Shown here: one piece after another, positions 8,936 through 59,828 of the stretch
Numbering within the stretch: position 1 is the first letter of the stretch
Layout of the letters: every line of letters begins with the position of its first letter
NCBI GenBank assembly: GCA_017559135.1
Contig: JAFYSZ010000006.1
Location: forward strand, 248,001 to 312,000
Direction of reading: 5' to 3'
DNA from: Bacteroidales bacterium
GTDB lineage: Bacteria > Bacteroidota > Bacteroidia > Bacteroidales > P3
DNA length: 64,000 nucleotides
Position numbers and translations under genes: made by a program
The notes under the pieces: model-generated
The model's input: only the letters and a program-made list of their open reading frames with translations
What the model was told of the DNA's origin: nothing
Database searches by the model: none

Positions 8936-8971
8936 AAATCCGCAGTGCTATAACAAAAGCATTGCGGATTT
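8936..8971. terminator. Bidirectional terminator between convergent genes
   Basis: Inverted repeat 8936-8949 with 8958-8971 (one G-T mismatch). On the minus strand it is followed by TTTTTT, the stronger polarity, which ends the leftward lipoprotein operon; on the plus strand it ends rloB. Confidence 0.75.
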
Positions 8972-9050
8972 CTATGATTTAAAAAAATATTTCTATGAAA
9001 TAATTTTCTAAATCTATGAAATATTTTTCTAAATCATAGAAATATTTTAG
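8971..9050. repeat. Tandem AT-rich 21-bp repeat, four units
   Basis: Units begin at 8971, 8992, 9013 and 9034, exactly 21 bases apart. The core is TCTATGAAATATTTTTCTAAA; the first and last units are degenerate. The last unit nearly matches the third unit of the array at 51877-51939. Confidence 0.75.
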
Positions 9051-9073
9051 TGTGTAGTTTTTTTCTGTTTTTG

Positions 9074-24051: not shown

Positions 24052-24474
24052 ATGAAAAAATCAAGCAAAACCTACACCGTAATAGATTGGGAAGAATTGA
24101 GAAACATAAAATTTTATGGAGATTATTACGTAGAAACAAATCCTATGAAGGAAAAAATACACCGAAACCTTACCTCAACCGATCTGTTTATCATATTTTA
24201 CATAAAAGGCTTTGGAGAAAAAGGATATTATGGCTCACAAAGATCAATAGCAGAATTACTTGGAATAACTCCCGAACAAGTTAATAGAAGTATGAAAATG
24301 CTTTTAAAAGTAGTTAATATATCTAATGATGAACCATTATTCATTAAAGACGAAGAAGCAATATATTACAATCCGAAATTTCTATATCGAAAAGATGGAA
24401 AGAAATTAGATTGTTCAGACTTTATTTCTGATAAATACAAAAGAAAGAAAAAAAACGAGAATATTGACTATTAG
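24052..24474 (+). CDS. Small helix-turn-helix DNA-binding protein beside an iteron-like array
   Basis: A 140-residue basic protein. Residues about 44-85 (NLTSTDLFIIFYIKGF, then GSQRSIAELLGITPEQVNRS) form a winged-helix-like domain, with SIAELLGITPEQVNRSMKML as the helix-turn-helix. The C-terminus is Lys-rich. It resembles the single winged-helix domains of replication initiators and phage or plasmid regulators, but is far shorter than a full Rep_3 initiator. Five 22-bp dyad repeats begin over its stop codon and continue downstream, which suggests the protein may bind them. Its role is not known. Confidence 0.75.
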   Translation: MKKSSKTYTVIDWEELRNIKFYGDYYVETNPMKEKIHRNLTSTDLFIIFYIKGFGEKGYYGSQRSIAELLGITPEQVNRSMKMLLKVVNISNDEPLFIKDEEAIYYNPKFLYRKDGKKLDCSDFISDKYKRKKKNENIDY

Positions 24475-24565
24475 TCAATCAAATGTTGATAAATCATCAA
24501 TCAAGTATAGACAATCCGTCAAGAAAATATTGATAAATCGTTAATCAAAAATTGATAAAATGTCA
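24463..24565. repeat. Five iteron-like 22-bp repeats with dyad symmetry
   Basis: Dyads of the form TTGAY-N5-RTCAA start at 24463, 24485, 24507, 24529 and 24551, exactly 22 bases apart. The first (TTGACTATTAGTCAA) is a perfect palindrome overlapping the stop codon of the helix-turn-helix gene. Units 3 and 4 each carry a mismatch in one arm. The array is followed by about 130 bases of very AT-rich DNA. Confidence 0.85.
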
Positions 24566-24703
24566 ATGTATATATAAATAATAATAAATAGATAGAAGTA
24601 AGAATAATAAAGAATAGCAAAAACTTTAAAAAGTGCAAGAAATAATTTTTTAATTCATAGTTTTAGCAAAATATTATTATGGTCTTGCATTACAATACAA
24701 AGA

Positions 24704-25115: not shown

Positions 25116-25215
25116 AGATAAAGGCAGAATAGAACACATGTTGTTTGCAATAAATAACGTATAAGAGTTTACGACAAATATAAGTGCAGAGGAATTTGAG
25201 CAAAGTAAGAAATAA
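25099..25215 (+). pseudogene. Remnant of a HEPN (DUF86-like) toxin gene
   Basis: An ATG at 25099 overlaps the MNT gene end and opens a frame reading MRETVKDKGRIEHMLFAINN. It meets a TAA at 25162-25164, where the family normally continues with aromatic or Glu residues. The same frame continues with EFTTNISAEEFEQSKK and stops again at 25213-25215. This is the first third of a DUF86-type HEPN protein; the RxxxxH active-site region is missing. I infer the toxin is dead and the antitoxin an orphan. Confidence 0.7.
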
Positions 25216-25238
25216 TAGAATAAAACAAAGAAATAAAA

Positions 25239-25287
25239 AAATAAAGCAAAGAAATAATTTTTTAATTCTTTGCTTTATTTTTTTTAT
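25239..25287. terminator. Bidirectional terminator between HEPN remnant and hydG
   Basis: Perfect 15-bp stem (25239-25253 with 25266-25280) with T tracts on both strands. The left arm lies in an AT-rich block whose CAAAGAAATA cores are 21 bases apart (25226 and 25247). Confidence 0.85.
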
Positions 25288-32641: not shown

Positions 32642-32661
32642 GACTTAAAAACAATAAAACC

Positions 32662-32697
32662 AAAAAGGCGATTGAAATTATTTCAGTCGCCTTTTTT
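32662..32697 (+). terminator. Terminator after ppdK
   Basis: 16-bp stem with one mismatch (32662-32677 with 32681-32696), three-base loop, T tract. Confidence 0.88.
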
Positions 32698-32930
32698 AGT
32701 TTGTACAATAAAGAGAAGATAAATTAGTTTCCCCACCACTTAACGCCAAATGCGTGCGATATTTTCGGCAAAGAAAATCTTAGTCCGAAATTTTGAAAAT
32801 ATAAGCCCTTAACTAAAAGCCACTAAATCAAAGACTTAACTCTTTAAGACTTGATTTGCTCAATTTTTTCTATGATTTAGTGCGACTTTTTCTTAGTTTT
32901 TCTTCATTTTTTATCGTGTTTTAGCAAATT

Positions 32931-33045
32931 TTCATCGGACCAAAAAAAAATTTCATCGGATCAAAAATTTTTTTCATCGGACCAAAATTTTTTTTGATCC
33001 GATCTCAATAAATTTTGCTCCGATTTGAGTGAATTTTGCTCCGAT
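32931..33045. repeat. Mirror array of six 21-bp units
   Basis: CATCGG cores at 32933, 32954 and 32975 (each followed by ACC or ATC and an A/T run) are 21 bases apart. The reverse-complement cores CCGAT at 32999, 33020 and 33041 are also 21 bases apart. Three units thus point one way and three the other, giving a large imperfect palindrome centred near 32988. Confidence 0.85.
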
Positions 33046-33249
33046 TTTTGCTTAATTTTCCTCAGACTTTTCAAAACCCTTGCGAAGAAAAATTTCGTAA
33101 CAATAAATTTAATTTTCACAGCCTCGGAATGAAAGATTTTTTTCTCGGGTTTAAACTTTTTCTAAACCGATTTTGTTAGTTTAGCGAGGATTGAAACAAA
33201 ACTAATCCTTCGTTTAAAAAAAAGTATTATTAAATTAAATTTAAGAGTT

Positions 33250-33747
33250 ATGGCGATTCAGTTCGTTAAAGTCAAAAGAAACATTCTTTTTGGCGACAAT
33301 CCGGGCGAGAGATACATCGCAAGAATTGTAAGAGAGCAATCTGTCGATTTAGACTACATTGCTGAACAAATTGCAGGGGCTTCCACTATGAGCAAAGCCG
33401 ATGTAATGGGAGTTTTACAGCAATTACAAGTAGAAATGAGTTATCACCTTTTGCGTGGTGCAAGTGTTAGACTTGGGCTTCTCGGCACTTTCACTCCAAA
33501 TTTGCGTGCCAAATCACAAGCAGATGCAGAATCGGTGAAGGCAGACACGATTAAAGGCTTACACATCGCCTTTCGCCCTTCGCCTTGGCTGACAAGCAAA
33601 ATCAAAGGTGCGAGATTCAACTATGTTGATACGACAATCAAAAGCATTGTCCAAAGCACAAACGCATCAGACGGCGACCCGCAAATGATGGACGCACTCC
33701 TTGACAAGAGAGAGCGTAGAGCAAAAAAAGAATTGACAGAAAAGTAA
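33250..33747 (+). CDS. HU-like DNA-binding protein, Bacteroidota type
   Basis: 165 residues: an N-terminal extension, then an HU/IHF-like fold (DLDYIAEQIAGASTMSKADVMGVLQQLQVEMSYHLLRGASVRLGLLGTFTPNLRAKS...FRPSPWL), then a charged tail. Such proteins are nucleoid-associated factors. It lies upstream of a BspA-type surface protein gene, and the same order (HU-like then BspA-like) recurs at 37523-39176, where the HU part is only a fragment. It follows the mirror repeat array, a possible binding region for it or another regulator. Confidence 0.9.
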   Translation: MAIQFVKVKRNILFGDNPGERYIARIVREQSVDLDYIAEQIAGASTMSKADVMGVLQQLQVEMSYHLLRGASVRLGLLGTFTPNLRAKSQADAESVKADTIKGLHIAFRPSPWLTSKIKGARFNYVDTTIKSIVQSTNASDGDPQMMDALLDKRERRAKKELTEK

Positions 33748-33767: not shown

Positions 33768-33797
33768 AAACCGCAGATTAACTCTGCGTTTTTTTTG
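33768..33797 (+). terminator. Terminator after the HU-like gene
   Basis: AAACCGCAGA/TCTGCGTTT stem (one bulged C) followed by eight T. A related hairpin lies at 37786, after the HU-like fragment. Confidence 0.75.
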
Positions 33798-33816
33798 TGC
33801 TTTAAAAAATTTGTTT

Positions 33817-33824
33817 TAACTTTG
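33817..33824 (+). promoter_or_regulatory. Promoter upstream of the first BspA-like gene
   Basis: TAACTTTG with TTTG at 33794-33797, 19 bases upstream. The sequence is shared with the promoter at 37836. Confidence 0.7.
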
Positions 33825-33882
33825 TGGGCTGAAAATTTATTGACGTAAAAAAGCGTTTTTGCTTATTTTTGGTGATCTGAAA

Positions 33883-33979
33883 TCCGCAAAATTTCAATCA
33901 TTACTAACCAAAAAATAAGGAAAGAACGCTCACGAGTATATCGTGGGCTTTTCTTATTTGGTTAGTTAGGTAATGCGGA
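33883..33979 (+). repeat. Nested inverted repeat (structured leader RNA candidate)
   Basis: Three nested pairings: TCCGCA/TGCGGA (33883-33888 with 33974-33979), ACTAACCAA.../...TTGGTTAGT around 33903-33919 and 33953-33966, and GCTCACGA/TCGTGGGC (33928-33935 with 33941-33948). It can fold as one long bulged hairpin within the transcript leader. Confidence 0.6.
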
Positions 33980-34071
33980 ACCTCAGATTACGATAAGACT
34001 AAGTCCACGTCTTTTTTAATGTCTTTTCATTAAGCAACAATTTAATTATTAACAAATAAAAATTTAAAAAA

Positions 34072-50763: not shown

Positions 50764-51870
50764 AGAAATAACCCACTTTAAAGGGCTAAATACATTAAGA
50801 TTTATTGCAGCCTCTTTGGTGGTTCTTCATCATAGTGCAACAATTGGACGAAAATATGAATTATTTAACATAGAAAATTTCAGTTTGTTTAGAAACGGAG
50901 CAAACGCAGTTAGTTTCTTCTTTGTGTTAAGCGGATTTCTAATAACATATCTTTTACTAAAAGAAAAAAAACAAACAAAAACAATCAGTATAAAATCATT
51001 TTATCTAAGGAGAGTAAAGAGAATTTGGCCTCTTTACTTTCTTTTGATTTTTATAGGCACTATTTTCCTACCATTTTTCTTCTCCTTGTTTAACATAGAC
51101 TATCAAATGCCTTACACACTCTCTCAAACATGGTATTATTTCCTTTTCTTCTTTCCAATACTCGTTCTTTTTAATTACGGAAACCACTTTTTAGAACCCT
51201 TATGGTCAATAGGAGTAGAAGAAGTCTTCTATTTAATTTGGGCACCCTTATTTAAATTTATCAAAAAAAGCCTTATACCAATCCTATTGATTATAATAAT
51301 AAAACTAAGCCTTGCAATCTATATACAAATACAAGGCATAGACACATCAACTAACCTTTTTGCATTTCTAATTCATAATTATAGCTTTGAAACAATGGCG
51401 ATAGGAGCCTTAGGAGCTTATCTTTTATTTACCACCCCCCCTATAAACAATTGGAAAACAGCGTATTGTTAAGCCGACCTGTGAAATATTTTATCTATAT
51501 CCTCACAATAATTTACCTTTGCTTTAACATAAATATCAATAATCCAATTTGGAATGCTATTTTCAAAACTCCCGTACTTTCACCCTTAATTGTGTCTTTT
51601 CTTTACCTCTATATAATAATCTCATACACCCTTTCCTTTAAAGAAAAGAAAGAAAACAAAATTCTATTTCTATTAGGCGAAATCTCCTACGGCATATATA
51701 TGTATCACATGGGCGTAATGTTTTTCACAGTCCTTATATTCACAAAACTAAAAGCCTATATCCCAAGTAGTTTACTAATAATAACCTTTCTAATCACAGT
51801 CTTTATTCTCACAATTCTAATATCCTATCTATCAAAACGTTACTTCGAGAATTTTTTTTCTAAGAAATAA
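50756..51870 (+). pseudogene. Acyltransferase 3 family membrane protein, frameshifted at a C7 tract (possible phase-variable gene)
   Basis: The first frame (50756-51472) encodes the N-terminal two thirds of an acyltransferase 3 (OafA/NodX-like) protein: FKGLNTLRFIAASLVVLHHSA with the catalytic His pair at 25-26, FFFVLSGFLITYLL, FYLRRVKRIWPLYFLLI and LWSIGVEEVFYLIW. It then ends early. The second frame (usable from 51451) holds the remaining membrane segments, including GEISYGIYMYHMGVMFF. The switch lies at seven C at 51435-51441. Eight C would join both frames into about 371 residues, the family's normal length. Substrate is probably a surface glycan. Confidence 0.8.
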
Positions 51871-51876
51871 AAAAAT

Positions 51877-51939
51877 AAAACAAAGAAATAATTTTCTAAA
51901 ACAAAGAAATATTTTTCTAAAACATAGAAATATTTTGCT
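51877..51939. repeat. Tandem AT-rich 21-bp repeat, three units
   Basis: Units at 51877, 51898 and 51919, each close to AAAACAAAGAAATATTTTTCT. Followed at 51939-51951 by CTTTCTTTGTTTT, the inverse of the unit start, so a hairpin is possible. Lies between the acyltransferase and the restriction-modification promoter. Confidence 0.85.
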
Positions 51940-51979
51940 CTTTCTTTGTTTTGATAATTGCTGTTACAAATATAATGAT

Positions 51980-58670: not shown

Positions 58671-59828
58671 AGATTTTATATCCGAAAGAAACCATCTTGT
58701 TTTTCGTTTTATCTTCTCTAATGTTGGTTCTCCGACAAATTCGTTTGCTAATTTGTGAAATTCCGTTTCGTTAATTTTTTCAAAAAATTCTTCTCTTTTT
58801 GGGTGGGGTTTTGCACTTTTTATAAGGGCTGTATTAGTTGCTAAAATATTTCTTAGTTTTGTTTCTCTAAAACAAAGAGATAATTTTTTAAAACAAAGAG
58901 TTATTTTTTTATTATAAAGAACTACTGCACTCACTCCTTTGTTGTCATCAATTTCTTGGTGAAAGCGATCAATCCCCCAATAGTCTGCAAGGCTTACGTC
59001 TGCTTTTGAAGTAAAATTCTTTGCAGGGCAGTGGTGGCAGGAGCGTCTTAAAAAGAGGTTTTGCAGAAATCCTCTCATATATATGTTGTCGTGAAGACTT
59101 TCTTTTAGAATGGTTTTGTCTTTTCCTTCAATTTTTAAATTAAATACTCTCCACGATTTGTCTTTGTTGCGAAATGATATGTTTTTTATGTCTTTTAGAG
59201 AAATATTCTTTCTTTTGCATACTTCTTCTAAGTATTTTTTCCAAACAAGTGGTGAAGTTACTCCGTGGCATACTACTTCTACTGCAATGAGATTGTCGTA
59301 TTCTTTTCCAAGATATAGTTTTAGTCCTAAAACTTGGCAAGGTGTTCCGCTAAAAAGTACTAAACGATTTTCTATAAGGTGGTTTTTTACTTTTTTGTAG
59401 CAATCTCTCATATCGGATTGAAGATATTTTGAGCCAAGAAAGGGTAGGAGTTCTTCTTTTGTTTGTGCGAAGTCGTGAATTAAATGAAAATTTTCATCAA
59501 ATCTTGCTCCGCAAACCACGCCTCCTTGTTCTAATACCATATTTGCAAGGGAAATAAAAATTCCTCCTGAAGATGATAGTTTTCTTTCTTCTTCCGAGTT
59601 GTTTTTTGCGGCGTATGCTATTGGTTCTATTTCGTTTTCTCTTTTTGGTGCAAGAATAGGGCAGACTTTTTCGCATAATCCGCATTCAATACAATTGTGT
59701 TTTGAAAGTCTTACTTGTAAAAATCCTTCTTTATCTTCTTTTAGTTCTAAGCATTGCTTAGGGCAAATGTTTACACAAGCACTACAACCACAACAATCTT
59801 CTTGTGATACTCTATTTATGATACACAT
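58644..59828 (-). CDS. Iron-sulfur protein of the F420-hydrogenase beta subunit-like family (polysaccharide cluster type)
   Basis: 394 residues. Two N-terminal 4Fe-4S motifs, CCGCSACVNICP and CIECGLCEKVCP, then the FrhB-like N- and C-terminal domains (SSGGIFISLANMVLEQGGVVCGARFD, VLFSGTPCQVLGLKLYL, VCHGVTSPLVWKKYLEEV, ADVSLADYWGI). Such proteins commonly sit with flippases and polysaccharide pyruvyl transferases in exopolysaccharide loci. It starts 2 bases after the flippase stop. Near the C-terminus it contains a heptad duplication, KKITLCF/KKLSLCF, encoded by a 21-bp DNA repeat. Confidence 0.88.
   Translation of the reverse strand: MCIINRVSQEDCCGCSACVNICPKQCLELKEDKEGFLQVRLSKHNCIECGLCEKVCPILAPKRENEIEPIAYAAKNNSEEERKLSSSGGIFISLANMVLEQGGVVCGARFDENFHLIHDFAQTKEELLPFLGSKYLQSDMRDCYKKVKNHLIENRLVLFSGTPCQVLGLKLYLGKEYDNLIAVEVVCHGVTSPLVWKKYLEEVCKRKNISLKDIKNISFRNKDKSWRVFNLKIEGKDKTILKESLHDNIYMRGFLQNLFLRRSCHHCPAKNFTSKADVSLADYWGIDRFHQEIDDNKGVSAVVLYNKKITLCFKKLSLCFRETKLRNILATNTALIKSAKPHPKREEFFEKINETEFHKLANEFVGEPTLEKIKRKTRWFLSDIKSKILKKRGF
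58869..58910. repeat. Two 21-bp repeat units inside a coding sequence
   Basis: AAAACAAAGAGATAATTTTTT at 58869 and AAAACAAAGAGTTATTTTTTT at 58890, 21 bases apart. Same type as the intergenic units at 51877-51939. On the minus strand they encode the heptads KKITLCF and KKLSLCF. Confidence 0.75.

Follow-up and report, generated by a model that had tools for sequence, protein, structure and literature searches.

Palindromic cores on a two-turn lattice in a Bacteroidales genome: a candidate system of protein-binding arrays

What is the mirror-like array of 21-bp units that lies between ppdK and the gene of an HU-like protein, and is it tied to that gene? The array was noticed in a window of 64,000 nucleotides, the whole stretch of DNA that was analysed, which belongs to a draft Bacteroidales genome of gut type (G000; 2.04 Mb in 25 contigs). 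The initial annotation described three direct and three inverted units in a gene-free gap of 608 bases, and took them for a cooperative protein-binding array or a recombination or replication-type site. Re-reading of the letters bears out the extent of the gap (32642–33249), and the CATCGG sequences at 32933, 32954 and 32975 with their 21-bp spacing. The inverted sequences are found at 32999, 33020 and 33041 as described; they read CCGAT(C/T), which is the reverse complement of ATCGG and not of the full CATCGG. The features of the region are:

32662–32696, forward strand: intrinsic terminator of ppdK, an inverted repeat of 17 bp with arms 94% complementary, then a T run
32715–32903, forward strand: element leader module (nhmmer profile of 26 copies, window copy included; E 7e-54)
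32926–33048, forward strand: 21-bp lattice array of six TCSGA cores, three G-centred, then three C-centred; core order the same in 12 copies
33040–33119, forward strand: element tail module (nhmmer profile of 26 copies, window copy included; E 3e-18)
33250–33747, forward strand: HU-HIG gene, 165 aa (Pfam PF18291 HU-HIG, 98.1 bits)
33793–34071, forward strand: promoter-like box and structured 5' leader module of an LRR/T9SS gene; at most other copies it directly follows the element

Scored as CATCGG against CCGAT, the step from one arm to the other is 24 bp. The TC[G/C]GA cores start at 32935, 32956, 32977, 32998, 33019 and 33040, and their centres (32937, 32958, 32979, 33000, 33021 and 33042) follow each other at exactly 21 bp, mirror centre included. 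As this spacing is kept across the mirror, the six units form a single lattice; what changes after the third of them is the central base, from G to C. The mirror of six units is real: the longest on-lattice run of TCSGA is six, and when the 608-bp gap was shuffled 5000 times with dinucleotides preserved, no run exceeded two. Away from the lattice, the gap has only two TCSGA, at 32784 and 33124.

The array is the middle part of an element of about 410 bp, flanked by a leader of about 190 bp and a tail of about 80 bp, that is present at about 13 loci in the genome. Eleven copies, including that of the window, are 80–100% identical over nearly their full length; weaker or partial copies exist besides. 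The search of the chromosome for the repeat unit, proposed at the outset, showed that it recurs, with 16 exact occurrences of the 17-mer TTTTCATCGGACCAAAA in the 25 contigs, nearly all within arrays. Further matches to the leader module lie beside other arrays of G000, and in G003 and G004, which belong to the same genus. The difference between some copies amounts to exactly one 21-bp unit. In 12 TCSGA copies, the cores are 97% identical, the spacers 82% and the flanks 81–83% (Mann-Whitney p 2e-4, with columns treated as independent and copies that share ancestry). Gene conversion could partly account for the slow change of the cores among these related copies.

The element directly follows the ppdK terminator. 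A matching hairpin is found 3' of ppdK in G004, there without the element. The sequence downstream of ppdK lacks the element in G004, G001 and G002 alike, and is occupied by other sequence, so that none provides a clean empty site in which a target site duplication could be read. The HU-HIG gene is placed between the element and the next promoter and leader module. Control specific to the HU-like gene, with which the array had been linked, was rejected, because the element occurs at about 13 loci and an HU gene is absent from nearly all of them. In G004, the relative of the HU-HIG gene (66% identical) has its own upstream 21-bp array; the core of that array, AAACGSCGTTT, is unrelated to TCSGA, and ppdK is without the element. 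A non-specific association by position between arrays and HU-like genes is therefore possible. A phage origin was rejected, as three viral contigs contain the 17-mer once each without an array, and a search with the HU-like protein returned no viral relatives. A known RNA family was also discarded as the identity of the array, the search of the window having returned the Bacteroidales SRP only.

At most of its loci, the element precedes a promoter and a structured 5' leader; of 12 TCSGA-array loci inspected, 11 have this leader module within the next 900 bp. In an alignment of eight copies of the module, compensatory changes are present in 12 of 42 predicted pairs. The module is conserved ahead of LRR/T9SS and other genes; a search at one locus gave no Rfam match above a family threshold. 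At the locus L016 (G000:C25:14800-18300), the tail of the element continues into coding-like sequence, and the promoter and leader module that normally follow are missing, owing to either a deletion or an assembly join. Further 5' leader modules are located at:

L003:1793-1965, L004:1834-2006, L013:1217-1389 and L018:1278-1451
L019:2043-2216, L049:1079-1250, L109:1150-1323 and L123:16624-16797

The period extends over the genome. Tandem self-similarity, defined by 42-bp windows that match themselves at 30 positions or more, occurs with a period of 21 at 33 places in 452 kb of G000. Each other period from 12 to 39 yields 0–2 places in the same DNA, and the double period of 42 yields 17. Simple scaling gives roughly 150 period-21 places per genome. 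Most period-21 arrays have CWWWG cores on the lattice, whatever the identity or orientation of the core; both may shift in 21-bp steps within one array, as in CAAAG-CTATG-CATAG-CATAG-CTTTG. In noncoding DNA, 64 pairs of different CWWWG cores are found at lag 21, while other lags average 4.05 (sd 2.4), and the G+C autocorrelation peaks at 21, 42 and 63. The composition of the spacers is itself dyad-symmetric, with A in 94 of 103 units at position 4 mirrored by T in 92 of 103 at position 11, and T in 73 at position 3 mirrored by A in 72 at position 12. The resulting consensus, 5'-TAWWTCWWWGAWWTA-3', applies to most other arrays of G000. Neighbouring spacers agree at 0.48–0.58 of their positions, compared with 0.51 for random pairs of units; judged by spacer similarity, the units thus appear largely not to be mere tandem copies. 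In runs of three units, identity between neighbours is 0.598 versus 0.541 (p 0.01), a small excess that indicates some local duplication. Such arrays are found in the window at four places:

8965–9060, no strand assigned: CWWWG lattice array with four cores (CTATG three times, then CATAG), between convergent genes
25189–25272, no strand assigned: CWWWG lattice array with a perfect hairpin at its end, between convergent genes
51853–51955, no strand assigned: CWWWG lattice array at the 3' end of a forward-strand gene
58852–58932, no strand assigned: CWWWG lattice array in frame within a 394-aa minus-strand ORF

The window also contains, at 24460–24567, a 22-bp tandem repeat with about five copies of AATATTGATAAATCGTCAATCA at the 3' end of a forward-strand gene.

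Scored against simple ORF calls, 24 of 37 sampled arrays of G000 are intergenic, though only about 9% of the sequence is noncoding. Twelve are within ORFs, a few of these being ordinary protein repeats. The 24 intergenic arrays do not clearly favour any of the three gap types (convergent, tandem or divergent), and placement as terminators or promoters was discarded, as no clear bias was seen among the sampled arrays. On contig C1, the gaps between arrays have a coefficient of variation of 0.72, compared with 1.0 for random placement. The array within tsaB of G000 forms an in-frame insertion of 14 residues (+42 bp) relative to G002, G003 and G004. Two other period-21 stretches within coding sequence were noticed, one in a SufS-like cysteine desulfurase gene (G000:C1:204326-205546), the other in a long ORF with MurD-like sequence (G000:C16:3256-5916).

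In related genomes, the period is kept with other cores. In G004, 374 kb hold 28 period-21 loci, and in G002 (G+C 43%), 400 kb hold 12; their cores differ from those of G000. The G002 core, TTCWGAA, forms 35 pairs at lag 21, 20 of them with a flipped centre, compared with 0.17 per other lag. The cores seen in the family on the two-turn period (CWWWG, TTCWGAA and AAACGSCGTTT) are mostly palindromic. The pattern TANNTCWWWGANNTA was counted against its reversed control at 205 versus 21 in G000, 81 versus 11 in G003 and 79 versus 30 in G004; in most other genomes searched it is at or below about the control level. A sample of 29 stretches from the same family yielded 15 loci at period 21 and 15 at period 22. 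Some genera of the family have 11-bp units, which register at 22, 33 and 44 as well. Intergenic arrays of such units, one helical turn long, were seen at L181 and L188 (G007 and G018), in another genus of the family. With the same threshold, no locus at period 21 or 22 was found in 325 kb sampled from 20 genomes of the order's other families. At ppdK loci of uncultured Bacteroidales MAGs from rumen, hindgut and digesters, some 21-bp arrays are present, part of the counts being due to 7-bp repeats. One divergent intergenic site has arrays in both G000 and G004, with different units. Positional conservation is only anecdotal, because 13 conserved gene gaps common to G000 and G004 could be compared and none has an array in either species. 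A looser test of G000 and G004 flanks gave some coincidences, including repeat-to-repeat matches, and its background rate had not been adjusted to intergenic DNA. A 21-bp lattice is not described in the literature that was searched.

From the lattice, its dyad symmetry, conservation and distribution, we infer a putative homodimeric protein that would bind the helix-phased sites cooperatively, a reading to which about an even chance is given. Each unit is a short, usually odd-length palindrome, repeated every 21 bp, or two helical turns. With this spacing, bound dimers would line up along the same side of the helix, where contacts between them would be possible. At the centre of the core, the class of the base pair (S or W) is constant and its orientation is not, a pattern that symmetric reading by a dimer would produce. 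As in operator arrays, the dyad-symmetric motif is more conserved than the spacers, and the spacing is helix-phased (22 bp in other genera). The two-turn spacing, the class-keeping palindromic cores, their slow change and the re-use of the spacing with other cores all fit such binding sites. The same-face, cooperative protein-binding array of the initial annotation is, by inference, the best-supported reading. Its other suggestion, a recombination or replication site, finds no support in these results: no terminal inverted repeats were detected in the element, and arrays occupy roughly 150 places. The arrays grow and shrink partly by 21-bp units, and selection would then hold core and spacing, as their conservation suggests. 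With about 150 mostly intergenic places, the factor would be of the nucleoid-organising, silencing or boundary type. The TCSGA subclass, mostly just upstream of promoter-plus-leader modules, may regulate the genes that follow. Against binding sites, the presence of at least two unrelated cores in one genome would require several proteins or recognition of shape; about one third of the sampled arrays are in ORFs, where selection for DNA binding is less expected; and some units are duplicated.

Noc, SlmA and MatP are chromosome-wide dimeric DNA-binding proteins with palindromic sites, mostly single. The arrays resemble these sites in being palindromic and in occupying tens of chromosomal places, and differ in forming rows at two-turn spacing. 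Plasmid iterons and centromere repeats also consist of sites lined up on the same DNA face at intervals of about two turns; they are single loci beside a rep or par gene, whereas roughly 150 chromosomal loci are estimated here. REP elements consist of a 20–40 bp palindrome with a GTAG or CGTC tag, together with a RAYT transposase gene. Like the arrays, REP/BIME and Rickettsia palindromic elements are dispersed palindromic repeats, the latter also in frame within genes, but they are palindromes of 20–150 bp, as opposed to palindromes of 5–15 bp on a fixed lattice (PMC3733652, PMC2229807).

The arrays could instead be functionless minisatellites on a short non-autonomous mobile or duplicated element, the units being multiplied by slippage, the copies spread by transposition or recombination, and the period simply inherited. 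The precedent is the BrickBuilt MITE of Porphyromonas gingivalis, which has a leader, tandem 23-nt direct repeats and a tail, with terminal inverted repeats in some copies (PMC4596501). Both elements are from Bacteroidales, dispersed and intergenic, with a variable number of units; both have predicted stem-loops, and a terminator precedes one described BrickBuilt copy as it does the window element (PMC4596501). The same layout, the 11 closely related copies with weaker ones besides, the differences by exact units, the +42 bp in tsaB, and the missing element after ppdK in three genomes all fit this origin. However, BrickBuilt units are near-identical direct repeats in one species, whereas those described here are degenerate, dyad-symmetric and flip the orientation of their cores, with a period that spans the family. 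Terminal inverted repeats were not found here, no 12-mer with 10 or more matches being found between the ends of the element consensus. Period 21 recurs with unrelated cores in many species and at many loci without leader or tail, neighbouring units are barely more alike than random ones, and cores change more slowly than spacers. A functionless minisatellite is the main rival reading, and is considered less likely than binding sites.

The mirror might also be kept as a hairpin of RNA or single-stranded DNA, such as a bidirectional transcription terminator or an RNA-stability element. The single-stranded DNA of the window array folds at −20.9 kcal/mol, compared with −14.9 in shuffles (z −2.5; equalled by 3 of 200), perfect hairpins end some arrays (such as 25189–25272), and in copy L032 the arms are altered in concert (ATCGCAG/CTGCGAT). 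Yet many arrays have cores of the same orientation that are unable to pair, a separate terminator already precedes the window element, and gaps between convergent genes hold 7 of the 24 intergenic arrays against 4.4 expected by length, without clear enrichment. Since many arrays could not form a mirror-type hairpin, and no bias in placement is seen, such a role is given little credence. For the in-gene arrays only, the period could reflect amphipathic heptads of the protein, seven codons making 21 bp. Some in-gene loci are indeed plain protein repeats (C1:106758), and a related heptad pattern, lacking CWWWG cores, occurs in the sufS gene of G004. This explanation is improbable too: the cores and lattice within genes are the same as in intergenic arrays, and in tsaB of both G003 and G004 a pair of CTTTG cores with 21-bp spacing sits where G000 has its array.

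If the arrays were minisatellites after all, they would still be short repeats on a genome scale, some of them in frame in conserved genes such as tsaB. It is tentatively proposed, at less than even confidence, that a family of the Bacteroidales has an undescribed chromosome-wide DNA-organising or silencing system, in which a protein would act cooperatively on two-turn rows of palindromes, its recognition sequence being replaced between species. Nucleoid organisation and long-range gene control are little known in Bacteroidales. A fixed two-turn spacing combined with changing palindromic cores would allow a co-evolving binding protein to be tested for directly; the pattern also opens the origin of Bacteroidales minisatellites, BrickBuilt included, to experiment.
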